DNA of 64,000 nt from Lachnospiraceae bacterium NK4A144 (GTDB lineage Bacteria; Bacillota; Clostridia; Lachnospirales; Lachnospiraceae): NCBI GenBank assembly GCA_000424365.1, contig AUJT01000001.1, positions 186,001-250,000 on the forward strand, written 5' to 3'. The first letter of the stretch is position 1, and every line of letters starts with the position of its first letter. The position numbers and the translations under genes were made by a program. Under the pieces are notes generated by a model. It searched no databases, was not told the DNA's origin, and was given only the letters and a program-made list of their open reading frames with translations. Of this stretch, positions 17,405 through 64,000 are shown one piece after another.

Positions 17405-17408
17405 TTCG

Positions 17409-18110: not shown

Positions 18111-18164
18111 AAAAAAACCTCCTTATGTAAGCATAGGAGGGGAGCGTGAAAAAACGACATATTG

Positions 18165-18246: not shown

Positions 18247-18448
18247 CGACACGTCAAAGACGTGCATTTATTTAAGTACATGCATATCCTATATTAGAGA
18301 AAAAAATATGTCAAGGAAATGTCGGCGATATGGTGATTTTGTAAAATAATAAGTGCATTTTTCTAATAAAGTACATGAATAATGCCGAAATATGTATCGT
18401 AACTATGATGTGTAGCTGTATATGGTCGTACAGAGTTGGGGGAATATT

Positions 18449-50413: not shown

Positions 50414-50517
50414 TCTGACAATTACGGGATGATTCTAGAAATCAAAGACTGCATGTGTTAAAATCAGTATATAAAAAGGGCGCGTGATTGCTCTGCCAGT
50501 GCAAAGGAGGTGGCGCA

Positions 50518-51489
50518 ATGGGTGCGCTTGATGCTGAAGCAAAACAGTATTTGGGGAAGAAGGAGACATTTGCTGATGCCTTTAATTTTCTTCTATATGA
50601 TGGGAAACAAGTAATAGATCCGGACAGTTTACAGGAGATGGATACTTCCCAGATTACAGTTCCTTATGGAAATAATGCTCATTTACCTGTTCAGAAATAT
50701 AGAGATCTTCTTCGAATTTGGGAAGCGATGACAGACGGTAAGGCGATATACGTAATTTTGGGTTCTGAGATACAGGGAAGTGTGCACTATGCCATGCCTG
50801 TGAAAGACGGATTATATGATTGGATTGGTTATTCAAAGCAGGTAGAAGAAGCAAGAAAGTCTTTCAAAAAGAAAAAGGGTAAACCTGAAGAATCCGCAGA
50901 ACTTTATTCCGAGGATGGTGTGCTTAAGATTAAACTCACAAGTGAAGAGTTTTTGTCAGGATTTAGGAAGACTGATAGGCTTATTCCTATAATCACAGCG
51001 GTAATATATGTAGGTTCTGATCCTTGGGACGGACCAAAGAGCTTATTTGATATGATGGATATTCCCGATAAGAGACTTATACCATTTCTTAATGACTATA
51101 AGCTGAATATTATATCTGCTCCGGATATAAAGGATGAGGATTTTGATAAATTCCATACGGATTTAGGTTTTGCCATGAAAATCATAAAGCATCAGAAAGA
51201 TGATGCTGATAAAATAATAGAAAATTCAGAACATAGAAAAATTGATTCTGATGCAGCGTTTTTTATTAAGGAAGCTGCAAAATTAGATCTGGAATTTGAA
51301 CGAGAGGAGGACGGTGTCGATATGTGTCTAGCGCAGGAAAATAGAGATCAAAGGATGAAGATTTTAGGAGCTATTGAAATTTATCGAGAATATGGAGCAA
51401 CTGATGAAGACATCATCCAAAAAGTTATAAATAAATTTAATGTAACACGAGAAGTTGTCCTTTCATTACTTACTTCTAAAACTGTATGA
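50518..51489 (+). CDS. Rpn/PD-(D/E)XK nuclease-like family protein (first copy)
   Basis: 323 residues. The region IYVILGSEIQGSVHYAMPVKDGLYDWIGY with an Glu-x-Gln pair, and later FRKTDRLIPIITAVIYVGSDPWDGP, is typical of the PD-(D/E)XK transposase/recombination-promoting nuclease families that are abundant in Lachnospiraceae. The catalytic Asp expected before the E-x-Q pair is less obvious here. Helices at the C-terminus (EIYREYGATDEDIIQKVINKF) are seen in relatives. ATG 50518 has AAGGAGG upstream. These genes are often mobile or multicopy; another relative lies at 52699-53571. Confidence 0.7.
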   Translation: MGALDAEAKQYLGKKETFADAFNFLLYDGKQVIDPDSLQEMDTSQITVPYGNNAHLPVQKYRDLLRIWEAMTDGKAIYVILGSEIQGSVHYAMPVKDGLYDWIGYSKQVEEARKSFKKKKGKPEESAELYSEDGVLKIKLTSEEFLSGFRKTDRLIPIITAVIYVGSDPWDGPKSLFDMMDIPDKRLIPFLNDYKLNIISAPDIKDEDFDKFHTDLGFAMKIIKHQKDDADKIIENSEHRKIDSDAAFFIKEAAKLDLEFEREEDGVDMCLAQENRDQRMKILGAIEIYREYGATDEDIIQKVINKFNVTREVVLSLLTSKTV

Positions 51490-51519
51490 TTGTTTACACT
51501 TTGAGCTAAGGATTATTTG

Positions 51520-51549
51520 GGTGCAGAGTTTCGGCTCTGCGCCTTTTTT
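51520..51549 (+). terminator. Terminator after the first Rpn-like gene
   Basis: GGTGCAGAG pairs with CTCTGCGCC around TTTCGG, followed by six T. Confidence 0.9.
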
Positions 51550-51590
51550 CAGAATGTGGTAACAAAATTTTAAGGGTGATAAAGAACAAA

Positions 51591-52169
51591 ATGGCAAAAT
51601 TATATTTTAGATATGGTGCAATGGGTTCTTCTAAGACTGCGAACGCATTGATGGTTCATTACAATTACATCGAGCGTGGCAGTAATGCAGTATTATTAAA
51701 GCCGCAGCTTGAGAATCGTGACGGTGAGAAAATAATAAAGTCCAGAATAGGTTTGGAGTCGGAATGTTGCTATGTTGAAGATTTCATAACTGAAATTGGT
51801 ACTAATTGGGATGCGGCGAAAAAGTATGACGCTGTAATTGTTGATGAATGTCAGTTTCTCAGTGCAGAGCAGGTTGACTGGTTGTCTGACCTTGTAGATT
51901 TTGCAGAGATACCGGTTATCTGCTACGGGCTTCGTACGGACTTTCAGAGTAAATTCTTCCCGGGCTCAAAACGGCTTATGGAGATCGCAGATAAGATCGA
52001 GGAAATAAAGACAGTTTGCTGGTGCGGACGAAAGGCTGCGATAAATGCCCGTATTTCTGATGGAAAGATAGTCAGAAACGGTGAACAGGTAATGATGGGT
52101 GGAAATGAGAGCTATATAGCAATCTGCCGAAAGCACTTCAAACTGGGAATGCTGTCGGCAGAGAAGTAA
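51591..52169 (+). CDS. tdk: Thymidine kinase
   Basis: 192 residues. It phosphorylates thymidine with ATP for salvage. Walker A is GAMGSSKTANAL near the N-terminus, the Walker B-like motif is DAVIVDECQFL, the lasso and specificity segment is CYGLRTDFQSKFFPGSKRL, and structural zinc cysteines occur in VCWCGRKA with a final CRKHF. This is the type II (TK1-like) enzyme. ATG 51591 is preceded by AAGGGTGA. Its stop codon is one base before that of the convergent HD gene. Confidence 0.95.
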   Translation: MAKLYFRYGAMGSSKTANALMVHYNYIERGSNAVLLKPQLENRDGEKIIKSRIGLESECCYVEDFITEIGTNWDAAKKYDAVIVDECQFLSAEQVDWLSDLVDFAEIPVICYGLRTDFQSKFFPGSKRLMEIADKIEEIKTVCWCGRKAAINARISDGKIVRNGEQVMMGGNESYIAICRKHFKLGMLSAEK

Positions 52170-52170
52170 A

Positions 52171-52632
52171 TTATAATCCAAATTCTTTGCACAAATTTTT
52201 GTAACGTGCCTGTTCTTTTTCTTTAATTGGCTTTGACAGGTCATTCATGATGTGATGCATCGCATCGGCATCTTTGAGAACTTCATCCATCGGACTGTCC
52301 GTAACAAGCTTGTCATCATGGTGATAGATTGCAGAACAAATAATTTCTGTTTCTTTATCATCTGTCAGATTAAGCTCAGTGAGGATAGTCCGTGCTAGCT
52401 CAGCTCCTTTATGTGCGTGGTCATCATAAGAGCCTGATTCATATGCATGCAAATCGTGCATCATTGCAGCCATAGACGCAAGTTCGGAATCCAAGCCTCT
52501 CTTTTTGGCGATAAGAGTAGCCGCAAGAGAGACTCCGTATAAGTGGACAAAAGCACTGTTTCTCTTATCCTCATCAGTTATCTTATTCAACTCTCTATCA
52601 ACATATTTTCTAAGTTCTTTTAATCTGCTCAT
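52171..52632 (-). CDS. HD-domain hydrolase
   Basis: 153 residues. HD motif: FVHLYGVSLAATLIAKKRG, then AAMMHDLHAYESGSYDDHAHKGAEL, then SAIYHHDDKL and a late KDADAMHHIMND. This is the small HD phosphohydrolase type, likely acting on a nucleotide or phosphorylated metabolite. GGAGGA precedes the ATG. It is convergent with tdk and lies downstream of the second Rpn-like gene with a gap of 66 bases. Function not further definable. Confidence 0.85.
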   Translation of the reverse strand: MSRLKELRKYVDRELNKITDEDKRNSAFVHLYGVSLAATLIAKKRGLDSELASMAAMMHDLHAYESGSYDDHAHKGAELARTILTELNLTDDKETEIICSAIYHHDDKLVTDSPMDEVLKDADAMHHIMNDLSKPIKEKEQARYKNLCKEFGL

Positions 52633-52698
52633 AGGTGTCCTCCAAGCAAAAAGTTGATAGTTACTATAAACTTATGGATTCATGAATGCTACATAAAA

Positions 52699-53571
52699 TC
52701 AATCACATTCTGTTTCAGAAATTGCATAATCTGCGACGTCTTCATCGTCCCAGTCTGGATTATCTTTTATAGCTTTTCGAACACAACTGAGGAACTCGGG
52801 CGTAATTTTCAAAATCTTAATCAATTCTTCATCAGATACAGGTATATTATTGTCGCGTATTAGCTCTACCTTGTCACTATACTTACCTAATATTCTTTCA
52901 TCAATAGAAAATAAATTTAGGTTCATATATTCATGCCTCCTTTTTTGGTTATCCTTAACCTTTTTTACTGCGTTATCTAGTAATCTCGCATAATCTGATT
53001 CAGGTGCATTTCCGTCCATGTAGGAAAGCATTGCCTTGATCTCATCGCTAACTTCGTGACCTTCTTTGTCTTTGGTTCCTTTAGTATTCAAGATGATACG
53101 TTTAGCGTGGTCTTTCATCTTTATGCTACTGTCCCAACTGCATATAGTTTCAAAAGGATACATGTACCAACTCATTCCGAAAGGATCGTATGTGGTTACG
53201 AAGATGATAAAGCTATCTTTGAGAGCACCAAAATCATCACCTTTATTTACGATATCGACATCGATGGAGCTTTGATAATACCTAAAACGCTTACCAAGAA
53301 ATCTTTTTCTGGATGCTTGCATTTCAACGTCATAGATCGTGTTTTCGTCATCCTCCACATATACATCCATGCGGATTCCTCTTGAGTCATATCCGGTCTC
53401 AACAGTTTTCTCTGGAGTGAGGACTTCAATTTTACGGATTTTCTTTCCGATAACCATTTCCAATAATGGTCGTACATGCTTTGGATCAGCCATTACTGTC
53501 TGAAACATATAGTTATCAGTGATAGTAAGCTCATCAAAGGGTTTCTTTGTTCTCTTTTTTGTGTTAGACAT
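52699..53571 (-). CDS. Rpn/PD-(D/E)XK nuclease-like family protein (second copy)
   Basis: 290 residues. This is a clearer family member than the copy at 50518: an N-terminal FDELTITDNYMFQTVMAD, then GIRMDVYVEDDENTIYDVEMQ (the D...ExQ core of PD-(D/E)XK), RFRYYQSSIDVDIVNKGDDF, and FVTTYDPFG. Relatives are annotated as recombination-promoting nucleases or putative transposases. The core residues appear intact, so nuclease activity is possible. An AGAAAGG site lies upstream. The inverted-repeat segment 53626-53758 begins 55 bases upstream of its start. Confidence 0.82.
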   Translation of the reverse strand: MSNTKKRTKKPFDELTITDNYMFQTVMADPKHVRPLLEMVIGKKIRKIEVLTPEKTVETGYDSRGIRMDVYVEDDENTIYDVEMQASRKRFLGKRFRYYQSSIDVDIVNKGDDFGALKDSFIIFVTTYDPFGMSWYMYPFETICSWDSSIKMKDHAKRIILNTKGTKDKEGHEVSDEIKAMLSYMDGNAPESDYARLLDNAVKKVKDNQKRRHEYMNLNLFSIDERILGKYSDKVELIRDNNIPVSDEELIKILKITPEFLSCVRKAIKDNPDWDDEDVADYAISETECD

Positions 53572-53912
53572 TAACTTTATTTGCCTTTCTTAATACTAAC
53601 ATTTAGTGACACTTGTCTCAATATCCATACATAGAGGTGTTTAAAAAGATGAGATTATTTGGCTATGCAGAGCCTTTTTTGATAAAAACACTAGATTTTT
53701 AAAACATTTTATAAAGGGATTTTGTGAGCGAAATGCTCAAGACACCTCTAATGTATACAAATGAGGCTTTTCGAATATAGCATCTGAAGGAGGAACTGTA
53801 AAGTGTTAAAGTATAAATATCTAATAAGTTTGACAAGCTTAACTAGTATGCGTATGCGGTAGGCGATATACTTATAGTTAAGTGTTAACAGAGTTGATGA
53901 TGAGGTGATCGT
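53572..53912. other. Intergenic region upstream of two divergent genes
   Basis: 341 bases without a gene. It contains an inverted-repeat-bounded segment (53626-53758) and probable promoters for the Rpn-like gene and the small protein at 53913. Confidence 0.5.
53626..53758. repeat. Inverted-repeat-bounded 133-bp segment
   Basis: CATACATAGAGGTGT at 53626-53640 is matched by ACACCTCTAATGTATAC at 53742-53758 (one inserted base). A small hairpin TGAGC-GAAAT-GCTCA lies just inside the right arm (53725-53739). It has no coding capacity. It may be a remnant of a small mobile element. Confidence 0.55.
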
Positions 53913-54128
53913 ATGTTTTTTAAGAAGAATACAGTTAAGAAAACTTACGACAGGGAAAATCAGAAGCCGGTCTTGAAGTGCAGCATCTGCAATGGAGAAC
54001 AGGTTGCAGGATTTTTAAATGTACATAATAATGTATTTGAAGACGTAATGCTTATAAGAGATCATGATGATCTTGAGCGCTTTAAAGCTCAGTATGGTAT
54101 ATCTGAAGAGATTGAGAAGATATACTGA
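53913..54128 (+). CDS. Small conserved protein of unknown function
   Basis: 71 residues. The sequence MFFKKNTVKKTYDRENQKP, KCSICNGEQVAGF and VMLIRDHDDLERF has the look of a small cytosolic protein found widely in Lachnospiraceae and Clostridia; I cannot assign a function. Two cysteines in a CSIC arrangement are the only notable residues. GAGGTGA precedes the ATG, and the next gene starts 46 bases after it. Confidence 0.72.
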   Translation: MFFKKNTVKKTYDRENQKPVLKCSICNGEQVAGFLNVHNNVFEDVMLIRDHDDLERFKAQYGISEEIEKIY

Positions 54129-54174
54129 GTTTTTTAACTTATAGGAAATAATGTATTCAGAGAGGAGACGTATC

Positions 54175-54519
54175 ATGCCATTTATTTCTACCAAAACTAA
54201 CGTAAAGATTTCAGAGGAGAAAGAAACAAAACTGAAGGAACGCTTGGGCCAGGCAATTTCTATTCTTCCCGGTAAAAGCGAAAGTTGGCTCATGCTTGCT
54301 ATCGAGGGTGACATCCCTATGTATTTCAGAGGTGACAACACAAAGCCTGTTGCATTTGTAGAGATTAAAACATATGGCAGTGCATCTCCTGATGTTTATG
54401 AAAAGATGACTAAGGAACTGACTGGTATTTACGGAGACATACTTGGTGTATCGCCGGATCATATGTATATCCGTTACTTTGGTTCTGATGATTGGGGCTG
54501 GAATGGATCCAATTTTTGA
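54175..54519 (+). CDS. MIF/tautomerase-family protein (phenylpyruvate tautomerase-like)
   Basis: 114 residues. After Met removal the N-terminal Pro (MPFISTKTNV) is the catalytic base of this superfamily. Further features are ESWLMLAIEGDIPMYFRG, the VEIKTYG strand and the closing YIRYFGSDDWGWNGSNF, all typical of MIF-like proteins. Members tautomerise keto-enol substrates such as phenylpyruvate. ATG 54175 has GAGGAGA upstream. Its last 17 bases overlap the start of the fructosamine kinase remnant. Confidence 0.85.
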   Translation: MPFISTKTNVKISEEKETKLKERLGQAISILPGKSESWLMLAIEGDIPMYFRGDNTKPVAFVEIKTYGSASPDVYEKMTKELTGIYGDILGVSPDHMYIRYFGSDDWGWNGSNF

Positions 54520-54890
54520 TGAGATGAAAAAAGTACCGGTATGCAGTTCTCTTTCTGAGGCAGTATCTTATGTTTGTGGAGATGGTGTTGTCATAGAAAA
54601 GAAGCAGCCGGTTCATGGTGGAGATGCCAATGAAGCCTATAAGCTTTTCCTTTCAGATGGGACAACGTTGTTTCTAAAAGCCAATACTTTATCAAACATC
54701 GTTACATGGAGATCTTTGGTCGGGAAATTTCATGTCAGATGAGTCAGGACTGCCGGTCTTGATCGATCCGGCAGTGTATATCGGCTGCAATGAAGCAGAT
54801 ATAGCCATGACAGAACTTTTTGGTGGATTTGACAGAAGATTTTCTACTTGTTCGGAAGCGCATATCTGTCAGCGGTTTATAGAATTATAA
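54503..54890 (+). pseudogene. Fructosamine kinase family pseudogene with internal deletion and frameshift
   Basis: The first part, 54503 to about 54715, encodes the kinase N-terminus (MDPIFDEMKKVPVCSSLSEA; PVHGGDANEAYKLFLSDG; LFLKANT). It runs off-frame to a stop after FHVR. From about 54722, in the +1 frame relative to it, the C-terminal kinase signature continues: GNFMSDESGLPVLIDPAVYIG, then EADIAMTELFGGFDRRF, ending at TAA 54890. About 125 residues remain of a protein usually near 285, so roughly 450 to 500 bases, including the catalytic HGDLW region, have been lost at about 54716-54722. Fructosamine kinases repair early glycation products. Confidence 0.85.
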
Positions 54891-54902
54891 AAAAGTATGT
54901 AA

Positions 54903-56414
54903 CTACTTCATGATCTTCAGCGAATATTCATATGCAAATAAAGCATCCTTATCATCAAGCCGGATGCCGAAGATCTGCTTCATTTTATCGAAGCGGTAAA
55001 ACAATGTAGATTTATGGATAAAGAGTGCGTTGGCTGTTGCAGGCGCACTTCTATTATTGTCAAAATACGTTTCGAGTGTGCTTATGTAATTTGTTCCATG
55101 CTCCAGATCATATTTTTTCATGAACTTTATCGAAGGGTGGATGGATGCCTCTACGAGAGCAGGTTTATTCATTACATTCAATATATGCTTTAAGTAGTAG
55201 TCTTCATAAAAGATGATAGGAGACTCGTTAAATGTCGATAAACGCTGGGAAAGAAGCCCCTGACACTGGTTAAAGTAAGCGGCACTGTCCAATAGATTAC
55301 TGTATGTATAGCTGATGGTACCTATCATATGGTTCATTGTTAGAAAGGTTTCCAGTCTGTTTAATTGTTTTTCGTCGATTTTTCTCATAGTTGACGTGGA
55401 AACCAGTGTTACAAAGCGGTTTCCAAAAATACCGGTTATACTGTTCGTAAAAATGGTAGAAAGCTGGTGTATGTAGTAATGATAAGCCATCAGTCTGTTG
55501 AAGTTTGCTTCAAAGCTGCACGTTAAGATATAGTAGTATTCCTTTGGTTTCACACCGAGAAATGACAGCTGTGTGAGGGAAGTTTCTTCGTCATAGCGTC
55601 TGCTGAAAAGGTCTTTTAGATACACATCGTATTTGATTCCCTGAGGATTATTATAGGAATCGTCCTTTTGCAGCTGGATAGAAACCATCTGTCCGAGCAC
55701 GTGGATTAGATCCAGATCACTTTCTGTGTGTTTGCGTTCTTTACACTGTACGCAGATATAACCTACGACAGCGTGCTTTATCCTTATACTTTCAAAAATC
55801 CATTCAAATGAATAATCTTCAAATTGAGTCGCAAAAGGATACACCGAGTGATAGATTCGCTCGGTGATCTTTTTTTGTTCCATATCTTCAGAATTTTTGG
55901 CACGTACGGTTAGCCGGCTATTTCTGATCTCCAGATCATCATCAACAGACAGTTCGGGGTATGAGGCAATGATGCCGTAGCTGCTGTCGCAGACAACAAC
56001 CGGATTGTTCAAATATTTGTATGCAGTCTGCAGAAGGGACTCTATACCGTAGCCTTTATGCAGGATGCTGAAAAGATTCTGTTTCTGCATATCTATCCTT
56101 TGATATGACAATACTACATCTTCTATGAGATTGTAGAGCTCTATGAGATCAATAGATTCCCTGATAAAGATGCAATCAGAAACCGGCTCCTCCTTACCTG
56201 TCCCGACAAAGATAATATCTCCGTACACTTCGGCTTTTCCGTAGGGATCGTATTTTGCAAGATACAGTACGTTCGGATTCAAGTGTCCGATAGCGGCATC
56301 TGTATCATTTAAAAAGCGTATTCCATCGGTAGCATGTCTTTTTGCGTAGTTTCCTTCTACGACAAGTCCGTATTTTTTCTCTATAGCAGCAACGATATCT
56401 GAAATATAAGCCAT
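54903..56414 (-). CDS. PucR/CdaR-family transcriptional regulator
   Basis: 503 residues. The C-terminus is the PucR helix-turn-helix: LETYFDNNRSAPATANALFIHKSTLFYRFDKMKQIFGI (about 455-490). A GGDEF-derived CdaR-like middle domain and an N-terminal sensing region with YNNPQGIKYDVYLKDLFSR precede it. Such regulators respond to purines, sugar acids or other metabolites. It is divergent from the oxidoreductase-thiolase operon across 350 repeat-rich bases, and is the most likely regulator of that operon. No ligand can be assigned. The ATG has AAGGAT 13 bases upstream. Confidence 0.88.
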   Translation of the reverse strand: MAYISDIVAAIEKKYGLVVEGNYAKRHATDGIRFLNDTDAAIGHLNPNVLYLAKYDPYGKAEVYGDIIFVGTGKEEPVSDCIFIRESIDLIELYNLIEDVVLSYQRIDMQKQNLFSILHKGYGIESLLQTAYKYLNNPVVVCDSSYGIIASYPELSVDDDLEIRNSRLTVRAKNSEDMEQKKITERIYHSVYPFATQFEDYSFEWIFESIRIKHAVVGYICVQCKERKHTESDLDLIHVLGQMVSIQLQKDDSYNNPQGIKYDVYLKDLFSRRYDEETSLTQLSFLGVKPKEYYYILTCSFEANFNRLMAYHYYIHQLSTIFTNSITGIFGNRFVTLVSTSTMRKIDEKQLNRLETFLTMNHMIGTISYTYSNLLDSAAYFNQCQGLLSQRLSTFNESPIIFYEDYYLKHILNVMNKPALVEASIHPSIKFMKKYDLEHGTNYISTLETYFDNNRSAPATANALFIHKSTLFYRFDKMKQIFGIRLDDKDALFAYEYSLKIMK

Positions 56415-56764
56415 ATTAAGTAAATCCTTTAAAACTGATGAAAATTCAGTTACAGTTCACACGCAAACGGAGCACTACGCTGCGGAGTTTGCGACCAAAA
56501 ATGATGAATAGTCATTGGATTTTGCCCATCGACGAAGTCGATTTAATTGGCAAAATTCGTTACGTGAACGAGCTGTAAGCGAGTGAACAGTAACAAAAAT
56601 CATCCGACGTTTGTCGGAAAAAAGAAACGATATTTAATCATTTTACTATATATCCATTGGATGTAAATAAGAACAATCAATGATAAATTTTTAACTAAGT
56701 TAGCGCACAGCGCTTACGTGAAAACCCGACAAAGTCGGATTATTTATTTTTGAGGAGAAATCTA
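56415..56764. other. Repeat- and hairpin-rich intergenic region between pucR-like gene and the redox operon
   Basis: 350 bases with no gene. Hairpins: CGCAAAC...GTTTGCG (56462-56494), a nested TTTTGCC...ATCGAC-GAA-GTCGAT...GGCAAAA (56520-56555), the 36-bp repeat at 56559-56594, TCCGAC-GTTT-GTCGGA (56604-56619) and CCGAC-AAA-GTCGG (56728-56740). The last lies just before the ribosome site GAGGAGA. Promoters for both directions must be here. Confidence 0.6.
56559..56594 (+). repeat. 36-bp dispersed repeat, copy 2
   Basis: GTTAC...GTAAC ends with core GAACGAGCTG...GCGAGTGAACA; 32 of 36 bases agree with 12716-12751. Confidence 0.75.
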
Positions 56765-57709
56765 ATGGGTATCAAAGTAATGGGCGTTACAGCCGGAAGA
56801 AAAAACAGCAACAGCGAAATTTTGTTGAAGGAAGCCCTTATTGCCTGTGAAGAAGCAGGCGCAGAGGTAACAATGATCAATCTTAAGGATTACAACATCC
56901 TTGATTGCACAGGTTGTACTTCGTGTACTATCGGAATGTCACAGGGCAAACACGTTGGTTGTGTTCTTGATGAAAAAGATGACAAGAAAAAAATCATGGA
57001 CGTGCTTCTGGATCAGGATGCTGTTATCTATTCCGTTCCGACATATGACTTAATGCCGTCAGCAACTTATCTTTCATTTGCACAGAGAAGTCTTAGCTAT
57101 GAGACAGCTTTCCTTGAGACGATCGGTGCGATCGAGCATAGAGACAGAGTTGCAGGACTTATCTCTGTAGGTGGTTCTACACGTGCATGGCAGTCAATGG
57201 CACTGGAAGGCATGCAGGCAACAATGTTTACAACAGATATGAAAGTTGTAGATATGATTCTCGCAACAAGAGTACCGGGACCTGCACAGTGTCTTCTTAA
57301 CGATGAACTGATAGAGCGAGCACATAAGCTTGGTGAGAATATCATAAAAGCAGTTAAGACACCTGTTGAAAAGAGAGGCTGGCTCGGAGATGAAGACATG
57401 GGCTGGTGTCCGAACTGTCACTCCAATGCACTTGTACTCGGTGAACCTCAGTGGGATGGACTTCATTATCCTATCGAGTGCCAGGTGTGCGGAGCAGGTG
57501 GAAACCTCGAGAAGACAGAAGATGGAAAGTGGAAGTTCGTCATTCAGGAAGATGGTCTCTTAAAGGATCGTACGACAGTTGAAGGACGAGCAAGACATCT
57601 TGAAGAGATCGGACATACACAGGGCGGCTTTTTCGAGAATCCGGAAAACAGGGAGATCGTTGGCAAGAAGATCCTCAGATATAAGGAGAAGACTTTTAAG
57701 GGAATTTAA
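56765..57709 (+). CDS. Flavodoxin-fold NAD(P)H-dependent FMN oxidoreductase with zinc-ribbon tail
   Basis: 314 residues. Residues 1 to about 200 are a flavodoxin-like iron-sulfur flavoprotein/FMN reductase: GVTAGRKNSNSEILLKEAL is the FMN phosphate loop, followed by DCTGCTSC, VIYSVPTYDLMPSA and GLISVGGSTRAWQSM. The tail has a four-Cys ribbon (WCPNCHSN and CQVCGAG) that could hold zinc or a cluster. It should transfer electrons from NAD(P)H or ferredoxin to a flavin or substrate. It is the first gene of the operon; ATG 56765 has GAGGAGA upstream. The closest partner is the FAD protein that starts 35 bases after it. Confidence 0.85.
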   Translation: MGIKVMGVTAGRKNSNSEILLKEALIACEEAGAEVTMINLKDYNILDCTGCTSCTIGMSQGKHVGCVLDEKDDKKKIMDVLLDQDAVIYSVPTYDLMPSATYLSFAQRSLSYETAFLETIGAIEHRDRVAGLISVGGSTRAWQSMALEGMQATMFTTDMKVVDMILATRVPGPAQCLLNDELIERAHKLGENIIKAVKTPVEKRGWLGDEDMGWCPNCHSNALVLGEPQWDGLHYPIECQVCGAGGNLEKTEDGKWKFVIQEDGLLKDRTTVEGRARHLEEIGHTQGGFFENPENREIVGKKILRYKEKTFKGI

Positions 57710-57744
57710 GACAATAACTTTTTAGAAAAGTGGAGGTACAAAAA

Positions 57745-59238
57745 ATGGAAAAGTTACAGTCAGATGTAATCGTTGTAGCAGCCGGTCTTTCAGGACTCGC
57801 AGCCAGCATCGCAGCAGCAGAAAATGGCGCAAGTGTTATTACTTTTGAAAAATCATCCACAACAGGTGGTGCAGCGAATATGGGAATGGGACCTCTCGGA
57901 GTAGGTTCCAGGATCCAGAAAGAGCACATGATCGCTCTTACTCCGGGTGAAGCTTTCAGAAAGCATATGTATTTCACACACTATCGTGTAGACGCAAGGA
58001 TGGTAAGAGATTACTACTTTAAGTCAGGTGACACTATCGACTGGCTCATGGATATGGGTGTTGAGTTCGTAGGTGTTCAGCGAGCTTTCAGCGCACCGGA
58101 GGCTACACGTGCTTATTCTGATGGTGAGTTTACATGGCATGTAGTAAAGCCTGAGGACGGTGGCATGCCGGGTCCCAGATGCGCAACAGCTATGACAAAG
58201 AAGATGACAGAGAGAGCAAAGGATCTCGGCGTAGAGTTCAGATTTGAAACTCCTGTAAAGAAGATCATCATGGAAGACGGCGCTGCTGTAGGTGTCATCG
58301 CTGTTGATAAGAATGGTGAAGAGATCGAAGCAAGAGCAAAGTCTGTGATCATCTGTACAGGCGGATTCGGTGATAATCCGGAGATGATCAAGGAGCAGAC
58401 CGAGTTTGAGTATGGCAAAACTATTTACAACTTTGCGATCCCGGGAATGAAGGGTGAAGGTATCAAGATGGCATGGGAAGCAGGAGCAGGCAAAGAGCCA
58501 TGCATCATGGAGCTTATGTACCAGCTTCCTGACAACATGAATCACTTTATCCTTGATGGTGCTTTCCGTCAGCCTTGCCTCTGGGTAAACAGAAACGGTG
58601 AAAGATTTATGCCGGAGGATCAGATCGCAAATACTACATTCACAGGAAATGCAATCGCAGCTCAGCCGGGAAAGGTTGCCTACTCTATCTTTGATAGTAA
58701 GCTTCTTAAAAAATATAAGAAGAAGGGACCGGATATCGTTTCTCACGTGCATCCTCATGACCTTTTTGATCATTTTGACGAGCAGTGGGAGAGAGATCTC
58801 GCTGACGGATACGAGCCTATCGTACAGGCTGATACTATCGAAGAACTTGCTGAAAAGGCAGGTATCGATGTAGAGGGACTTGTACGTCAGATCGAAGAAT
58901 ACAATGAGATGTGCGAGAACGGTTATGACGAGATCTTCGAAAAAGATCGTGCATATATGCAGCCTATCGAAAAGGCTCCGTTCTATCTTTGCAGAGAAAA
59001 TGTAGGTGCTTACGGTTCACTCGGCGGAGTAAAGATCAACCATAAGACACAGGTTCTCACACAGGATGCAAAGGTAATACCGGGACTTTACTGTGCAGGA
59101 ACAGACGCCTGCAATATTTTCGGAGACAGCTATCCTTTTATCCTCTCAGGAAACACAATGGGATTCTGCCTGAACAGCGGTCGTATCGCAGGAGAAAATG
59201 CTTCTGCAAGCGATGAAGATTTCGATGATTATGAGTAA
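57745..59238 (+). CDS. FAD-dependent reductase, fumarate reductase/3-ketosteroid dehydrogenase fold
   Basis: 497 residues. The N-terminal Rossmann motif VVAAGLSGLAASIAAAENGA binds FAD (first Gly of the usual GxGxxG replaced by Ala), followed by EKSSTTGGAANMGMGPLGVG. A capping domain and the C-terminal FAD strand GLYCAGTDACNIFGDSYPFILSGNTMGFCLNSGR complete the flavocytochrome c/FrdA-like family. There is no cytochrome or signal peptide. Family members reduce C=C bonds of enoates, urocanate or steroids in anaerobes. Electrons could come from the next two genes. GGAGGT precedes the ATG. The substrate is unknown. Confidence 0.87.
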   Translation: MEKLQSDVIVVAAGLSGLAASIAAAENGASVITFEKSSTTGGAANMGMGPLGVGSRIQKEHMIALTPGEAFRKHMYFTHYRVDARMVRDYYFKSGDTIDWLMDMGVEFVGVQRAFSAPEATRAYSDGEFTWHVVKPEDGGMPGPRCATAMTKKMTERAKDLGVEFRFETPVKKIIMEDGAAVGVIAVDKNGEEIEARAKSVIICTGGFGDNPEMIKEQTEFEYGKTIYNFAIPGMKGEGIKMAWEAGAGKEPCIMELMYQLPDNMNHFILDGAFRQPCLWVNRNGERFMPEDQIANTTFTGNAIAAQPGKVAYSIFDSKLLKKYKKKGPDIVSHVHPHDLFDHFDEQWERDLADGYEPIVQADTIEELAEKAGIDVEGLVRQIEEYNEMCENGYDEIFEKDRAYMQPIEKAPFYLCRENVGAYGSLGGVKINHKTQVLTQDAKVIPGLYCAGTDACNIFGDSYPFILSGNTMGFCLNSGRIAGENASASDEDFDDYE

Positions 59239-59257
59239 AAGCAGAGGTTTGTTTTAG

Positions 59258-61345
59258 ATGAAGATTTTTATTGATGGAAAAGAAATTGAAGCAAGAGAAG
59301 GCGTGTCCGTTCTAGATGCGGCTCTTGAAGCAGGTGTTTTTATTCCTCATCTTTGCTCTCATCCTGATCTGGAAGCAAAAGGCGGCTGTCGTCTCTGCTC
59401 TGTTGAAATAGACGGAGTAGAGGGGGCAGTCCCCTCTTGTAAGACCATCGTGGAAGATGGCATGAAGATCACCGTCAACGGTCCTGCGGCAGATAAGGTC
59501 AGAAAGACAGCAATGGAGCTTATCCTTGCGACACATCCAGCTGACTGTACAGGATGTCCTAAGTACGGAAAGTGCGAATTGCAGTCCATGTATCAGTACA
59601 TGGGGGTCAGTCCTGAGAGATGGAGAAAGAAGTCCAGAGCAGTTCCGAATGATGAGAGTAATCCTCTTATTTCCCATCTCTTTACCAGATGCGTGAGATG
59701 TGGACGCTGTATCCGTGCCTGCCAGGAAATGCGCGGCGTAAAGATACTTGATTATGTAAAAACAGATGCAGGCATCCGTGCAGGTGTGCCTGACGGAAAG
59801 AGTCTTGCGGACGCAGGTTGTCGTTTCTGCGGCGCTTGTATCGAGGTATGCCCGACAGGCTCCATCATGGACGCATTTAAGATCATGAAGCCTGAGCGCT
59901 CTTACGAAGAAAATGTAGTTCCGTGCAGAAGTTCATGTCCGGCACATGTAGATATACCGGAGTACTTAAGAGCAGTGAAAGAAGGGGATTTTGATAAGGC
60001 TGCTGCCATTATCAGAGAGAAAGTTCCTTTCCCTGAGACACTTGGTTCTGTTTGTACAAAAAAATGTGAGAGTAACTGTAAGAGAGGCGAGCTGAATGCA
60101 CCTGTTTCCATCTGCAGACTTAAGCGCGCAGCAGCGCTGAATGATAGCGGTGCATGGAAAAAGCGTGTGCGCAAAGATCCTGCGACAGGAAAGAAAGTTG
60201 CAGTTATCGGCGGTGGTCCGTCCGGACTCACAGCGGCATATTACCTCACAAAGAAAGGTCACGAAGTAACTGTATTTGAGAAGAATGAAAAAGCCGGCGG
60301 ACAGTGCCGCTACGGTATACCTTCATACAGACTTCCGGACGAACTTCTAGATAGAGAGATCGATACCATTTTAGAATCCGGATTCACAATAAAGACCGGC
60401 ACAGAGTGCAGTGAACCTGCAAAGCTTTTATCTGAAGGATTCGATGCAGTGCTGATCTCGATCGGAACACATCAGGGTACGAAGCTTCCGATTGACGGTA
60501 ATGACCTTGAAGGTGTCTATGTCAATGCAGATTTCCTGAAAGCTGCCAGAGAAGGAAAGCCGCTCCCTGTAGGAGACAGAGTCATGGTACTTGGCGGCGG
60601 AAATGTTGCCTATGACTGTGCACGTACCGCCATCAGGCAGGGTGCAAAGGAAGTACACATTGCCTGTCTCGAAAATCTCCAGCAGATGACATCATCAGCT
60701 GATGAGAGACAGGAGGGTGAAGAGGAAGGAGTTATCCTTCATGCAGCACATTCTTTCCTGCGTATCACAGGAGAAAACAAAGTCAGCGGAGTAGAACTTA
60801 AGAAAGTAAATAAGTTTTATTTTGACGAAAACAGAAAGGCAATCCTTGAGCTTGAGGAAGGCTCAGAGCATATCGTTGAAGTCGATAACGTGATCTTTGC
60901 CGTAGGACAGAAGCCTCTCGGCACTGACAAGATGGGTGTTGAGCTTACTCACGGACCTTATATCGCAGCAAATGACAGTAAAACCTCGATGGATGGTGTT
61001 TTTGCATCTGGTGACGTAGTAACAGGTACACGTTCTGTTATCGAGGCGATCACGGGTGGCAGAAATGCAGCGATCGCTATTGATAAATATCTCGGTGGAG
61101 ACGGAGACATCAGCGAAACACTGACAGACAGAAAAGAACCTGAAAAATATATCGGACGTATCGAAGGATTTGCAGGACTGAAACGGACAGAAGCCGAAGT
61201 GATGGACGCAGATAAGAGAAAGTGCGGATTTGACGCCATAGAAAAGCCTCTTACCTGTGATCAGGCAAAATGCGAAGCGGGACGATGCCTGCAGTGTGAT
61301 CTAAGAACAAAAATATCCAAAGTAAAGCTTTGGAATGAGTACTAG
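59258..61345 (+). CDS. Multi-cluster NAD(P)H oxidoreductase: NuoG-like N-terminus fused to GltD-like flavoprotein
   Basis: 695 residues. A [2Fe-2S] domain (Cys 33, 44, 47, 61), a NuoG/HydA-type H-cluster motif (His 93, Cys 97, 100, 106) and two [4Fe-4S] sets (CVRCGRCIRAC at 145-155 and CRFCGACIEVC at 188-198) are followed by a GltD-like part: CRSSCPAHVDIP cluster region, FAD motif VIGGGPSGLTAAYYL at about 313, NAD(P) motif VLGGGNVAYDCAR and a last CEAGRCLQC. It should split or relay electrons between NAD(P)H, ferredoxin and the flavoproteins in the operon. It starts 20 bases after the FAD gene with weak AGAGG upstream. Confidence 0.9.
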   Translation: MKIFIDGKEIEAREGVSVLDAALEAGVFIPHLCSHPDLEAKGGCRLCSVEIDGVEGAVPSCKTIVEDGMKITVNGPAADKVRKTAMELILATHPADCTGCPKYGKCELQSMYQYMGVSPERWRKKSRAVPNDESNPLISHLFTRCVRCGRCIRACQEMRGVKILDYVKTDAGIRAGVPDGKSLADAGCRFCGACIEVCPTGSIMDAFKIMKPERSYEENVVPCRSSCPAHVDIPEYLRAVKEGDFDKAAAIIREKVPFPETLGSVCTKKCESNCKRGELNAPVSICRLKRAAALNDSGAWKKRVRKDPATGKKVAVIGGGPSGLTAAYYLTKKGHEVTVFEKNEKAGGQCRYGIPSYRLPDELLDREIDTILESGFTIKTGTECSEPAKLLSEGFDAVLISIGTHQGTKLPIDGNDLEGVYVNADFLKAAREGKPLPVGDRVMVLGGGNVAYDCARTAIRQGAKEVHIACLENLQQMTSSADERQEGEEEGVILHAAHSFLRITGENKVSGVELKKVNKFYFDENRKAILELEEGSEHIVEVDNVIFAVGQKPLGTDKMGVELTHGPYIAANDSKTSMDGVFASGDVVTGTRSVIEAITGGRNAAIAIDKYLGGDGDISETLTDRKEPEKYIGRIEGFAGLKRTEAEVMDADKRKCGFDAIEKPLTCDQAKCEAGRCLQCDLRTKISKVKLWNEY

Positions 61346-61355
61346 GAGGATAGAA

Positions 61356-61928
61356 ATGAGTAGCACAGATAAGATCAAAGAATTAAAAGAAGATCAGTGT
61401 GTCGTTGATGTCCTTCTGAAAACTGTTCAGGGTCATGCCTGCAAAGACTGCGGAAAGTGCGTTTTCGGTTATGAAGGCATCACACAGCTGGAAATGATAC
61501 TGAAGGATATCACAGAGAAGAAAGGCAGGGCATCTGACAAGGCTCTTTTAGAAGACCTTTGTGAAATGATGAAGACCCAGTCTCTTTGCGAGGATGGTGC
61601 GGATATCGCAGATGCGGTAAAGGAAGCGCTCAGTTCCTATGGGGATATTTTTGATGAGCATATTTCAAAGAAAGCGTGCCGTGCAGGCGTATGTAAGAAG
61701 TTTATGACTTATCACATCCTGGCAAGTAAGTGCGTAGGATGCGGTGAATGTATGGATGTCTGCGAAGACGAAGCAATCCTCGGAAAGAAAAAATTTGTAC
61801 ATGTTATTGACCTTGACGAGTGTACGCTCTGCGGAAAATGTATGAATGCCTGTGATGAAGACGCTATCGTTATGGCAGGTGCCGTAAAACCTAAATGCCC
61901 GAAGAAACCTATTCCATGCAAAAGATAA
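61356..61928 (+). CDS. NuoF-C-terminal-like iron-sulfur protein with 2[4Fe-4S] ferredoxin domain
   Basis: 190 residues. The N-terminus (GHACKDCGKCVFGYEG, Cys 29, 32, 35) resembles the [4Fe-4S]-binding tail of NuoF/HydB, which normally follows an FMN domain absent here. A four-Cys ferredoxin pair follows: CVGCGECMDVCEDEAI and CTLCGKCMNACDEDAI. It is likely an electron relay for the 695-residue oxidoreductase. AGGAGG is present five bases before the ATG. An in-frame upstream ATG at 61335 overlaps the previous gene and has no such site. Confidence 0.87.
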   Translation: MSSTDKIKELKEDQCVVDVLLKTVQGHACKDCGKCVFGYEGITQLEMILKDITEKKGRASDKALLEDLCEMMKTQSLCEDGADIADAVKEALSSYGDIFDEHISKKACRAGVCKKFMTYHILASKCVGCGECMDVCEDEAILGKKKFVHVIDLDECTLCGKCMNACDEDAIVMAGAVKPKCPKKPIPCKR

Positions 61929-61986
61929 GAGAATGTAACGTTCAGGATCCCATTGATCCTGAACAGTTATAAGAGGATAAAAAAAC

Positions 61987-63294
61987 ATGAAGAAATTCGG
62001 AAAATATTCAAGAAGCGTATCCATCATCGGTGTAGGCTGTACACCCTTTATGTATACGGTAGATAACGAAGAAACTAACGGACTTACAGAAGGCGAGCTT
62101 TTCGGCTATGCCGCTCTTAAGGCAATGGAAGATGCCGGTGTAAACCCTCAGGATGTGGATTTCTATTTCCATGGATGCGCAAGCCCGCTTAACGGATCAA
62201 ATTACCTTACACCAAACGTACAGATCGCAAACTGGTTTGGAATGAAGGGAAAGGGTTCTATCCATCATTCCGAGGCATGCTGCACAGGCTATCTCGCAAT
62301 CGAACAGGCTGTGAATGCTGTTGCTTCCGGAAAGTATGACTGTGTACTTACAGGCGCAGTTGAATTTGGCGACAGCACACCGAGCCCTGCGGATAATGTA
62401 GAAACTCCGAAGCATCCGTATAAGCGTGACAAGATGACTATGGAGAAGTTCCTTAAGACAACTTCATGGCTCTATGACCGCACCTATACCAGAAGTCTCA
62501 TGGCAGGACAGGAGCTTATCTATGATGACGCTGCTGAGTGGTATGTACGTACAAGAGGAATTTCTGCTGAGGATATGAATAAGACTCTCAATGCAATGTG
62601 CATAAATAACAGAAGAAATGCTTCTGTTAATCCTCTTGCTATCGAAAGAACAACTTACGAGGAACTTGCGGAGAAGGCAGGAATGACACTTGATGAGTAC
62701 ATGAACTCACCATATAACCCGAAGATGGGTGATTTCCTCCGTGCCGGCGGTCTGGAGCTTAAGTGTGACGGTGCTGCAGCATGTATCGTATGTGCAACAG
62801 AAAAGATCCCGGAGATCGCAAAGAATCTGAAGCATAAGCCTATTGAGGTTCTTGGCATCGGAAGCGCAGCATGTGAAGCAACTACACCTCACTTTGAAGT
62901 TCGTGCAACAGAAGAAGCCGTAAAGCAGGTATATGAGTCAACAGGACTTTCCGGGGATGATCTGGATCTGTTCTTTGCAAACGACTTTATTATCACATCT
63001 CACCTTGTTTCAGCAGAAATCGCAGGATATCTGCCTTACGGTGAGGGCTGGAAATATATCTGTGACGGACGTACTGCATGGGATGGAGATAAGCCTATCA
63101 ACTCTAACGGTGGAAGAACTTCCTTTGGACATGCCCACGCTGCATCAGGTCTTGCTGATATGTATGAAGCCTGCAAGCAGATGTGGAATGAATGCGGCGA
63201 TCGTCAGGTAAAGAAACTGCCGAAAACAACAATGCTTCGCGGATATGGCGGCGCTCAGAATGTAGCTGCTATCATCATTCGGACAATGGACTGA
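61987..63294 (+). CDS. Thiolase-family protein (SCP-x/DUF35-associated type)
   Basis: 435 residues. Thiolase fold: IIGVGCTPFMYT at the N-terminus, nucleophile region HSEACCTGYLAIEQAVNAVASG with Cys at about 98, and GGRTSFGHAHAASGLADMYEA with the catalytic His. The usual second Cys (CxG near the C-terminus) is not seen; the equivalent reads RGYGGAQNVA. These traits, and the DUF35 gene that follows, place it among non-classical thiolases (archaeal acetoacetyl-CoA thiolase, Ltp2-type aldolase, PhlA-like acylating enzymes). It may form or break a C-C bond in an acyl thioester. ATG preceded by AGAGGA. Confidence 0.87.
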   Translation: MKKFGKYSRSVSIIGVGCTPFMYTVDNEETNGLTEGELFGYAALKAMEDAGVNPQDVDFYFHGCASPLNGSNYLTPNVQIANWFGMKGKGSIHHSEACCTGYLAIEQAVNAVASGKYDCVLTGAVEFGDSTPSPADNVETPKHPYKRDKMTMEKFLKTTSWLYDRTYTRSLMAGQELIYDDAAEWYVRTRGISAEDMNKTLNAMCINNRRNASVNPLAIERTTYEELAEKAGMTLDEYMNSPYNPKMGDFLRAGGLELKCDGAAACIVCATEKIPEIAKNLKHKPIEVLGIGSAACEATTPHFEVRATEEAVKQVYESTGLSGDDLDLFFANDFIITSHLVSAEIAGYLPYGEGWKYICDGRTAWDGDKPINSNGGRTSFGHAHAASGLADMYEACKQMWNECGDRQVKKLPKTTMLRGYGGAQNVAAIIIRTMD

Positions 63295-63309
63295 CAGGGA
63301 GGATTTACC

Positions 63310-63732
63310 ATGGCTATTAAATTAGAGAAGATCGTTGAAAAATTTTATCTTTCCCTGGAAGAAGGGAAAATCATGGGACGCAAGTGTCCGAAGTGCGGAC
63401 ATGTAGAGTTTCCGCCGGTATATGCATGCAATGAATGTGGAAATTACGAGACTGAATGGGTAGAACTCAGCGGAAAAGCAAAGCTTCATTCCATCGTTCT
63501 TCCGGCAGCTCTTTCTTCAAAGCCTGAGTACAAAAAAATGGGCAAGTACGCATACGGCGAAGTTGAGATCGAAGAAGGAACAAGACTTAACGCAGTTGTC
63601 CGCGGTATCAGCAGGAAAAACCGTGCAGAACTTACAGAGAAGCTTCCGCTCAATATCCATGCATCGATCATCGACCGTGACGGCGGATTTAAGACAGTTG
63701 TATTTGATCTGGATGAAGAATACACGAACTGA
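63310..63732 (+). CDS. DUF35 OB-fold/zinc-ribbon protein, partner of the thiolase
   Basis: 140 residues. An N-terminal helix (LEKIVEKFYLSLEEGKIMG) is followed by a rubredoxin-like zinc ribbon (CPKCGHVEFPP and CNECGNYE) and an OB-fold (KLHSIVLPAA, GKYAYGEVEIEEGTRLNAVVRG). This is the ChsH2/PhlB type that docks on thiolases and gives acyl groups a path to the active site. It starts 15 bases after the thiolase with GGGAGGA upstream. No enzymatic residue is expected in it. Confidence 0.9.
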   Translation: MAIKLEKIVEKFYLSLEEGKIMGRKCPKCGHVEFPPVYACNECGNYETEWVELSGKAKLHSIVLPAALSSKPEYKKMGKYAYGEVEIEEGTRLNAVVRGISRKNRAELTEKLPLNIHASIIDRDGGFKTVVFDLDEEYTN

Positions 63733-63829
63733 GAATTGCGTGATGCTACGAACACTTGGCGAACGTTAGTGAGCTTAGTGAGAGTGTATGCAGAGCTGCT
63801 TCGCAAGAAGCGGAGCAATTCGTGTCATA
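63732..63829 (+). repeat. Dispersed palindromic repeat, copy B
   Basis: Begins AGAATTGCGTGATGCTAC and ends GGAGCAATTCGTGTCAT. The ends match 50143-50180 in the same orientation and 43593-43637 inverted, but the interior is about 55 bases longer than in the other two. It begins at the end of the DUF35 gene and lies inside the presumed operon. Confidence 0.75.
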
Positions 63830-63863
63830 GATAAAGATATAAAGAAAAAAGGAGATAGAAACA

Positions 63864-64000
63864 ATGTCAAGACAGGAAATTTTAGAGCAGGTTTTAAATA
63901 TGGTAGCAATGTCCTATAAGAAGGATGTTTCAGAGCTTTCTGAGTCAACTTCTTTTAAGACTGACTTAAACGGAGCATCTGTACAGATGGTAGCACTTGT
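63864..64000 (+). CDS. Acyl carrier protein-like protein (partial, runs off the window)
   Basis: The first 45 residues are visible. The helix SRQEILEQVLNMVAMSYKKDVSELSESTSFKTDL matches the start of acyl carrier proteins. The phosphopantetheine serine region reads LNGASVQMVALV, so a Ser is present but the usual Asp-Ser-Leu is Ala-Ser-Val. GGAGAT precedes the ATG. An ACP beside the thiolase and DUF35 genes suggests that the acyl chain is ACP- and not only CoA-bound. The gene ends outside the window. Confidence 0.72.
   Translation, partial: MSRQEILEQVLNMVAMSYKKDVSELSESTSFKTDLNGASVQMVAL

Follow-up and report, generated by a model that had tools for sequence, protein, structure and literature searches.

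The 64,000-nucleotide stretch of the Lachnospiraceae bacterium NK4A144 genome analyzed here (the window; positions 186001-250000 of contig C1, in a genome, G000, of 4.09 Mb and 68 contigs) ends inside an operon for two flavoproteins, an iron-sulfur electron chain, a thiolase-fold subunit with its DUF35 partner, and an acyl carrier protein (ACP); beyond the window the operon runs on into genes for a phosphotransacylase (Ptb) and a butyrate-kinase family protein (Buk) (Table 1). Its gene neighborhoods incline us, with belief running slightly ahead of doubt, to the view that this operon serves flavonoid degradation and that an ACP-dependent, energy-conserving cleavage module stands in it in place of phloretin hydrolase (PHY), the enzyme that ordinarily makes this C-C cut by hydrolysis. 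A polyphenol or flavonoid degradation context is very likely, being well supported by neighborhoods, and the thiolase module probably does the work of PHY; a route from acyl-ACP to ATP is somewhat probable, and a phloretin-type dihydrochalcone has an even chance of being the exact substrate.

The evidence lies in gene order, conservation of the module, redox genes common to PHY and phloroglucinol clusters, cleavage modules that occur separately, and linkage to CGDB (PF19906), the beta subunit of C-glycoside deglycosidase. The flavone reductase FLR, PHY, the phloroglucinol pathway, and the C-deglycosidase are known elsewhere; of the thiolase-DUF35-ACP-Ptb-Buk module we found no description in the open-access literature searched.

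We searched 295 genomes of the order and 398 of the phylum (genome labels begin with G), and scanned a collection of 84,980 species with a thiolase pattern that detects close relatives only. The scan yielded 130 relatives, of which the best 80 were kept as loci (labels L); 42 of these, whose flanks reach 8 kb or more upstream and 6 kb or more downstream, are referred to as well covered.

Redox genes shared with PHY and CocE clusters

In three genomes (G262, G093, and G193), counterparts of the operon's FLR-like protein (71-72% identity to the window), FAD enzyme (86%), NuoG-GltD fusion (65%), and ferredoxin (52-56%) form a block that lies across a divergent PucR gene (27-29%) from a phloroglucinol-type operon. 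This facing operon encodes 3HCDH, cupin, SDR (the family to which PGR presumably belongs), DPGC-type cyclase, BKACE, thiolase, and CoA transferase, and ends in PHY (PF18089). Labels other than PHY come from BLAST to genes named by Pfam or NCBIfam; cupin and the plain thiolase were assigned by look alone. The composition matches that of the Clostridium scatologenes phloroglucinol cluster, for which an excerpt of PMC10470551 lists PGR, the cyclase DPGC, a 3-hydroxyacyl-CoA dehydrogenase, and a KCE-like transferase.

The three PHY loci, each a 20-kb stretch (L135-L137), contain no ACP, Ptb, or Buk, and no PHY-like open reading frame (ORF) was found in 84 thiolase stretches, many of them without full flanks. 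The PF18089 (DAPG_hydrolase) profile has no match in G000, and the same profile finds 8 of the 295 order genomes. Because PHY and the thiolase/ACP modules are kept apart beside common redox genes, three cleavage modules appear to share one slot: PHY; CocE with ACP and Buk, with or without Ptb; and thiolase-DUF35 with ACP, Ptb, and Buk.

The second of these is represented by G138, in which one strand carries phloroglucinol-type genes, AcpS, CocE, ACP, an FLR-like gene (53% identity), Buk, and Ptb, and the other PucR followed by the FAD enzyme (77%), NuoG-GltD (59%), and ferredoxin (51%); the PHY profile has no match in G138. The 17.5-kb contig with the CocE cluster of G1042 yielded no Ptb; a CoA-transferase pair sits beside Buk there, and the contig end holds a 3HCDH-type gene (47% identity) and a DPGC-type cyclase (85% identical to its G751 counterpart). 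L088 encodes ACP and CocE as one fused protein, and the ACP-CocE set is a candidate alternative system for acyl-to-ACP cleavage. ACP is not universal in this family, however: CocE relatives in G751 and G821 (37-41% identity) lack it. These ACP-less clusters (L128 and L127, respectively) contain CGDB/TIM-barrel genes, a DPGC-type cyclase, and 3HCDH; L128 also contains BKACE, a CoA transferase, and a thiolase-like gene.

On the minus strand at L088:3779-5932, L126:6331-8396, and L139:5434-7497, a CocE/NonD (S15-type) hydrolase has an ACP next to it or fused to it. Buk and FLR-like genes are nearby in all three, with Ptb in L088 and L139 and a CoA-transferase pair instead in L126. FLR homologues also occur in other settings: G094 has a distant one with CGDB, MocA, and a divergent FAD/NuoG-GltD/ferredoxin block, and G033 a lone one.

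Distribution and conservation of the thiolase module

Close thiolase homologues (E ≤ 1e-230) occur in 4 of the 295 order genomes (G000, G266, G205, and G218). Two further genomes gave weak partial matches (31-33% identity), 289 gave none at E ≤ 1e-20, and in the phylum sample only the window's own genome matched at E ≤ 1e-60. The best 80 of the 130 relatives come from Butyrivibrio, Pseudobutyrivibrio, Agathobacter, other Lachnospiraceae, Oscillospiraceae metagenome-assembled genomes (MAGs), and Floccifex, and include two MAGs labeled Chloroflexi and Anaerolineaceae; the nearest named loci belong to Butyrivibrio and other Lachnospiraceae, and we regard the source as probably a Butyrivibrio-like inhabitant of rumen or gut. 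Where a record names a body site, it is the rumen or a goat, sheep, cattle, or roe deer digestive tract; that of L047 ("Sandtown") names a different place, and several others presumably come from mouse gut or rumen.

The original prediction suggested looking for a conserved neighborhood, and in these best 80 of 130 relatives the order thiolase-DUF35-ACP-Ptb proved nearly fixed. Leaving out loci that were truncated or fused, or in which an overlapping neighbor ORF had been discarded, DUF35 directly adjoins the thiolase in 68/68 scorable cases, ACP adjoins DUF35 in 63/65, and Ptb adjoins ACP in 66/69, so the association is not due to chance. The 42 well-covered loci contain ACP in 41 cases, Ptb in 42, and Buk in 40; in L066 the ACP ORF had been dropped since it overlaps the Ptb ORF. 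A second thiolase-DUF35-ACP set, 51-52% identical, is present at L014:5191-12034 and L063:5185-7188; after that of L014 come genes for an OYE/BaiCD-like reductase, an MFS transporter, and a Mga/PRD-like regulator, and the set has no Ptb-Buk of its own.

His62, Cys98, Cys99, His143, and His382 are identical in all 86 aligned thiolase rows, with Cys98 and His382 at the thiolase Cys and GH positions. The second catalytic Cys is absent, as the original prediction had noted: in the C-terminal RGYGG stretch, positions 419, 421, and 422 are Gly and position 420 is Tyr or Phe, again in 86/86 rows. The DUF35 protein passes the cut-off for its zf-ChsH2 half (35.3 versus 23.2 bits), and its OB_ChsH2_C half falls below the curated one (21.5 versus 27.1). 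Natural thiolase-DUF35 fusions occur in five stretches (L011, L012, L077, L083, and L093) from at least four organisms. An AlphaFold model of one such fusion (pTM 0.81 and pLDDT 73.8, the latter falling under 50 in stretches close to the active site) has a Pyrococcus furiosus thiolase and PhlC chains as its top Foldseek matches.

ACP exceeds its PF00550 cut-off (32.2 versus 20.8 bits). The canonical ACP motif is DSL, with Asp before the Ser; here, in the aligned homologues shown, the Ser mostly lies in a GAS(V/I)QM-type motif with Ala before it. This motif may be why dedicated phosphopantetheinyl transferases accompany the module: of the 42 well-covered loci, 8 carry AcpS and 9 carry an Sfp-type gene. 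The operon's Buk passes the butyrate kinase model TIGR02707 (362.1 versus 289.1 bits) and is not the same protein as the butyrate kinase on contig C4, which scores higher. Ptb reaches the PF01515 threshold (283.7 bits) and scores below both TIGR02706 (68.6 versus 410.5) and TIGR00651 (244.4 versus 311.2); by these scores it is a phosphotransacylase outside both named groups, phosphate butyryltransferase and phosphate acetyltransferase. PlsX is a precedent for an enzyme of the phosphotransacylase fold that uses acyl-ACP. Benzoylsuccinate, steroid side chain, and HMG-CoA pathways were considered and set aside: their equivalog cut-offs were missed, and no CoA ligase or CoA transferase is among the operon genes scanned.

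FLR-like protein and its candidate electron supply

The sole PDB match of the FMN_red protein is the flavone reductase of Flavonifractor plautii (7D38-7D3B; phmmer, E = 7.7e-29; identified as FLR in an excerpt of PMC7862272). Residues 4-295 of 314 align with residues 2-288 of 310 in 7D38, including the zinc-ribbon CPxCHS and CxxCG stretches and part of the tail. The FLR pocket is reported to contain His271, Ile275, Gly106, and Trp149, with His271 and Ile275 holding the flavone A and C rings (excerpt of PMC7862272); His278 and Ile282 of the window protein correspond to His271 and Ile275 and are invariant in all 10 rows of our FLR-like alignment (A3). By sequence the protein belongs to the FLR class, and, from its family, it would reduce flavones or flavonols.

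FLR-like genes (E ≤ 1e-25) occur in 10 of the 295 genomes, including all four thiolase genomes (p = 6.8e-7; this and all other co-occurrence p-values are from Fisher tests that ignore the relatedness of genomes and loci). The other six are G262, G093, G193, G138, G094, and G033, whose neighborhoods are described above. FLR-like genes also lie within the flanks of 33/42 well-covered loci, at 25-99% identity to that of the window. NuoG-GltD is present in 22/22 loci with a close FLR homologue versus 1/20 without (p = 4e-11); distant homologues show the opposite trend, with NuoG-GltD in 3/13 loci, and the FLR-like proteins thus fall into two subclasses with different partners. The NuoF-tail protein directly follows NuoG-GltD in 30/32 scorable cases. 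FLR cannot take electrons directly from NAD(P)H, and its electron chain was left open in the part of the source cited (PMC7862272); we propose the NuoG-GltD/NuoF-tail pair as a candidate electron donor of FLR-class reductases. The top NCBIfam model for the FAD enzyme is VprA (329.2 bits against a cut-off of 600), which places it in the same superfamily and not as that enzyme.

Some loci contain a different reductase. L011, from G266, encodes a 707-aa Old Yellow Enzyme (OYE)-type reductase, the type to which we take Fcr of Eubacterium ramulus to belong, and no FAD/NuoG-GltD block is present in the L011 stretch. L077 and L089 hold only pieces of an OYE 92-96% identical to that of L011 (in L077:3583-4595, at 93-96%, as two separate ORFs), and L036 and L044 encode a 43-44%-identical OYE alongside the FAD/NuoG-GltD block. 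A clean swap of the block for an OYE reductase is unsupported, as G266 has a FAD/NuoG-GltD/ferredoxin block ~21 kb from the thiolase. Fcr of E. ramulus is described as converting naringenin to phloretin without chalcone isomerase (excerpt of PMC8398226).

Links to C-deglycosidase and ring-opening genes

CGDB is found in 12 of the 295 order genomes and in all four thiolase genomes (p = 1.6e-6; without the window's genome, p = 3.9e-5). In G205, G218, and G266 a distance of 14-21 kb separates CGDB from the thiolase, and both belong to one island that also contains a TIM-barrel partner, MocA oxidoreductases, FLR-like genes, a GPH transporter, and a FAD/NuoG-GltD/ferredoxin block that is divergent (33-50% identity). 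Sampled genomes of the same genus that lack the thiolase (G118, G158, and G187) have no CGDB match. Among the 80 loci, four include CGDB (L052, L064, L066, and L068). As a yardstick, 3/8 PHY genomes have CGDB (p = 0.003) and 4/8 have FLR-like genes (p = 4e-5).

A single contig, L091, carries DPGC-type (76% identity), BKACE, 3HCDH, and FLR-like (48%) genes together with thiolase, DUF35, ACP, Ptb, and Buk. Since a DPGC-type gene coexists there with the thiolase module, ring opening is probably not the module's role. Beyond the 295-genome sample we searched 10 further thiolase genomes and found a DPGC-type protein in 3, one of them a weak 33% match, and none in 7; G000, G266, G205, and G218, which have no match either, may release the ring unchanged. 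The genome of L086 (Agathobacter ruminis) has a DPGC-type gene (73% identity) within a phloroglucinol-type cluster at L144:7996-17667, which comprises cupin, SDR, DPGC-type, BKACE, and 3HCDH genes followed by the FAD enzyme, NuoG-GltD, and ferredoxin (38-49%), and which lies apart from the thiolase module. In L091, a 1423-aa protein is encoded after Buk on the same strand (14681-18952); we take its start to resemble 2-hydroxyacyl-CoA dehydratase activators.

Operon layout and regulator

Every gene named in the original prediction is an intact, collinear ORF at or near its predicted position, and the predicted tight order beside a divergent PucR gene holds, with gaps between operon genes ranging from −11 to +131 bp. 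Pfam backs each assignment, and NCBIfam provides related models for all but the FMN_red protein, which has none. Reading on past the end of the window extended the operon by five genes (Table 1). As to whether the redox and thiolase genes share a transcript, no plus-strand terminator-like site was found in any gap between operon genes, including that between ferredoxin and thiolase (plus-strand hits fall within genes or within the leader); the two blocks come apart in other genomes, and we therefore regard them as modules.

Table 1. Genes of the operon and its divergent regulator. Positions past 64000 are window-equivalent and lie beyond the window.
Gene product	Position	Strand	Length (aa)	Profile match or remark
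PucR-family regulator	54903-56414	−	503	Divergent; PF13556, 59.7 bits
Predicted FLR-class ene-reductase (FMN_red domain, zinc ribbon, C-terminal tail)	56765-57709	+	314	PF03358, 41.1 bits
Predicted FAD-dependent ene-reductase, fumarate-reductase/vinylphenol-reductase superfamily (FAD_binding_2)	57745-59238	+	497	PF00890, 184.4 bits
NuoG-GltD fusion with [2Fe-2S], 4Fe-4S, and NAD(P)H/FAD domains	59258-61345	+	695	Fer2_4, NADH-G_4Fe-4S_3, Fer4_20, Pyr_redox_2
NuoF-tail and 4Fe-4S ferredoxin-like protein	61335-61928	+	197	PF10589, 56.9 bits; Fer4 with two stretches
Thiolase-fold subunit	61987-63294	+	435	Thiolase_C_1, 91.6 bits
DUF35/ChsH2-like partner (zinc ribbon and OB fold)	63310-63732	+	140	PF12172, 35.3 bits; PF01796, 21.5 bits
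ACP	63864-64103	+	79	PF00550, 32.2 bits; last 103 bases beyond window
Ptb (phosphotransacylase)	64114-65118			
Buk (butyrate-kinase family)	65115-66248			
DUF1097 membrane protein	66258-66758			
Metallo-beta-lactamase-fold protein	66806-67567			
Sfp-type phosphopantetheinyl transferase	67560-68195			24.9 bits versus PF01648 cut-off of 25

An Rfam scan of positions 50000-64000 at gathering thresholds found no RNA element. By eye, inverted-repeat-like stretches are visible at 63733-63863, between the DUF35 and ACP genes, and at 56415-56764, between the PucR and FLR-like genes. Just outside the regulator gene, positions 54151-54519 encode a MIF/tautomerase-family protein (PF01187). Two small unknown proteins had no match in the PDB. 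A PucR-like gene (23-96% identity) is present in 22 and DUF1097 in 28 of the 42 well-covered loci, and small membrane proteins of clusters c15 and c18 (for example, L085:6111-6551 and L060:6749-7231) also recur in the operons. Our guess is that these recurring membrane proteins, DUF1097 included, are candidate polyphenol or phenylpropionate permeases.

Proposed pathway

The original prediction had joined the flavin/iron-sulfur chain to thiolase-DUF35 chemistry on an acyl-ACP in one reductive pathway that matched no single named one, and our analysis agrees. From its family, the FLR-like enzyme would act first, reducing the C2-C3 double bond of a flavone- or flavonol-type substrate. The FAD enzyme would then reductively open the C ring, or reduce a chalcone, to give a dihydrochalcone (a phloretin-type acyl-phloroglucinol). 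Judging by their co-occurrence, NuoG-GltD and the NuoF-tail ferredoxin could pass electrons from NAD(P)H to both flavoproteins. In the cleavage step, Cys98 of the thiolase would attack the aryl ketone, with the polyphenolic ring leaving as a stabilized carbanion (phloroglucinol), and the DUF35-thiolase complex may hand the phenylpropionyl group on to the dedicated ACP, at its phosphopantetheine; such chemistry would be a PhlC-type Friedel-Crafts acyl transfer run in reverse. Ptb would finally swap ACP for phosphate, and Buk would yield ATP and an acid such as 3-(4-hydroxyphenyl)propionate.

More broadly, gut and rumen bacteria might conserve the energy of aryl-ketone cleavage via ACP, phosphate, and ATP, a catabolic substrate-level phosphorylation based on ACP, with an interchangeable cutting enzyme (thiolase-DUF35, or a CocE-type hydrolase fused or linked to ACP) and NuoG-GltD/ferredoxin as the FLR donor, a generalization that we hold neither more nor less firmly than its denial. 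If true, the proposal explains how gut bacteria without PHY could break down flavonoids and what they gain, one ATP per molecule. It would also place ACP, not CoA, as the acyl carrier of a catabolic ATP-forming route, provide a candidate electron chain for FLR-class reductases, and supply new marker genes with which to predict flavonoid breakdown from genomes. Two questions would become accessible to direct tests: what reduces FLR, and in which bacteria of rumen and gut the breakdown of flavone C-glycosides goes past the aglycone.

Weighing the alternatives

Several observations count against degradation of a flavonoid by a PHY-replacing module. G205 holds both the thiolase module and, elsewhere in its genome, a PHY gene; in G000 itself CGDB lies on contig C9, apart from the operon contig; and no DPGC-type ring-opening protein was matched in G000, G266, G205, or G218. 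The FLR-like gene is missing within reach in 9/42 well-covered loci. In the FLR-like protein, a gap of 8 residues takes out the segment containing FLR Gly106, and the residue opposite Trp149 is Arg140, with Trp142 nearby, so its substrate may differ from that of FLR. Fold comparison does not clearly separate the thiolase from those of other thiolase-DUF35 complexes, as BbsB, SCP2, and HMG-complex thiolases score alike with the fusion model (50 chains listed; E = 1e-25 to 5e-18), and by sequence PhlC is not the closest relative, the P. furiosus thiolase, BbsB, and SCP2 thiolases scoring higher. To these we add the relatedness of genomes and loci that the co-occurrence p-values ignore.

The original prediction allowed that the pathway either builds or shortens an acyl compound. 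Shortening gained support and building did not: cleavage is most likely because the operon runs into Ptb-Buk and because its redox genes elsewhere adjoin PHY and phloroglucinol genes. In the building direction, Buk and Ptb would activate an acid to acyl-ACP, and thiolase-DUF35 would join the acyl group to a carbon nucleophile, whether phenolic or not, to make a specialized metabolite. The closest studied C-acylating complexes of this fold include PhlABC and MucABC, both biosynthetic, and the second set of L014, with its OYE, transporter, and regulator and no Ptb/Buk, would suit such a role; we nevertheless think it unlikely, given the redox genes common to PHY and phloroglucinol-degradation clusters, the islands with C-deglycosidase, MocA, and GPH transporter genes, and the CocE/NonD hydrolase that ACP and Buk have as their other partner, which fits breakdown. 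Flavin-based electron bifurcation, also raised in the original prediction, found no backing: no Etf- or Hdr-type partner is among the operon genes scanned, the one test made. Nor does the extended operon fall wholly into a described pathway, although its neighbors in other genomes belong to described ones; the thiolase-DUF35-ACP-Ptb-Buk module is the part for which we found no description.

Instead of cleaving a dihydrochalcone, the thiolase could open a reduced ring of the dihydrophloroglucinol or 1,3-cyclohexanedione type, with an oxo-acyl-ACP as product and ATP made from it. Cleavage of 1,3-dicarbonyl compounds is within the range of thiolases, and the DPGC-type gene has no match in the four thiolase genomes of the order or in 7 of the 10 further ones; but L091 has it with BKACE and 3HCDH on the contig of the module, the L086 genome has it too, and CocE and PHY modules co-occur with DPGC-type genes, so that the exchangeable slot would be the PHY step. 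Ring opening by the thiolase is accordingly doubtful in our view. We also think it improbable, to a similar degree, that the substrate is some other reducible acyl-phenol or beta-diketone (isoflavone, xanthone, chromone, or curcumin-like) handled by the same ACP/Ptb/Buk logic. The partly different pocket of the FLR-like protein, the two FLR-like subclasses with different partners, and the broad aglycone specificity reported for C-glycoside deglycosidases (excerpt of PMC8563793) would be in keeping with it, whereas redox genes beside PHY and the phloroglucinol pathway point to phloroglucinol-type A rings. Ptb, Buk, and ACP are common annotations, but that these are ordinary housekeeping fatty-acid or butyrate genes, adjacent by accident, is very hard to credit given the rarity of the thiolase, the better-scoring butyrate kinase on C4, and the near-fixed gene order.

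Comparison with known systems

The thiolase-DUF35 pairs of known CoA pathways (benzoylsuccinate, steroid side chain, and HMG-CoA) use CoA substrates. With these the window pair shares its two-protein architecture and fold; it differs in that a dedicated ACP with the GAS motif nearly always adjoins it. Degradative and biosynthetic CoA thiolases carry the second catalytic Cys, which the window thiolase does not. A thiolase-DUF35 HMG-CoA complex is described in an excerpt of PMC6392133, as is PhlACB, which transfers acyl groups reversibly to and from phloroglucinol. There PhlC, of the thiolase fold and in complex with a DUF35 subunit, moves the acyl group between phloroglucinol rings via an acyl-Cys, with Cys88, His347, and an essential His56 in its active site (PMC6392133, same excerpt). 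PhlACB and the window both have a DUF35 zinc-ribbon/OB partner and a thiolase-fold subunit that has a His and a single catalytic Cys; invariant His62 and His143 are candidates for the counterparts of PhlC His56 and His144. PhlACB has three subunits (HMGS-like PhlA, DUF35 PhlB, and thiolase PhlC), whereas the window operon has DUF35 and thiolase only, with no KAS III/HMGS-like (PhlA-type) gene among the operon genes scanned. Unlike PhlACB, it has its own ACP, Ptb, and Buk, and is proposed to run in the cleaving direction.

The FLR-like protein is homologous to FLR over nearly its full length, including the zinc ribbon, the C-terminal tail, and the equivalents of His271 and Ile275 (compared with an excerpt of PMC7862272); unlike FLR, it has the gap at Gly106 and no aligned Trp149, and a NuoG-GltD/ferredoxin pair is encoded alongside it. 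The C-glycoside deglycosidases DgpBC and DfgAB (excerpts of PMC8563793 and PMC11170127) are linked to the module but serve another step, the upstream deglycosylation. The nearest parallel is the PHY pathway of E. ramulus and F. plautii, which runs from FLR through CHI or Fcr to PHY and the phloroglucinol pathway. Redox genes of the window's kind stand beside PHY in three genomes, and the window module is proposed to cut the same aryl-ketone bond; but where PHY hydrolyzes, the module would cleave by thiolase-DUF35 onto ACP, with formation of ATP.

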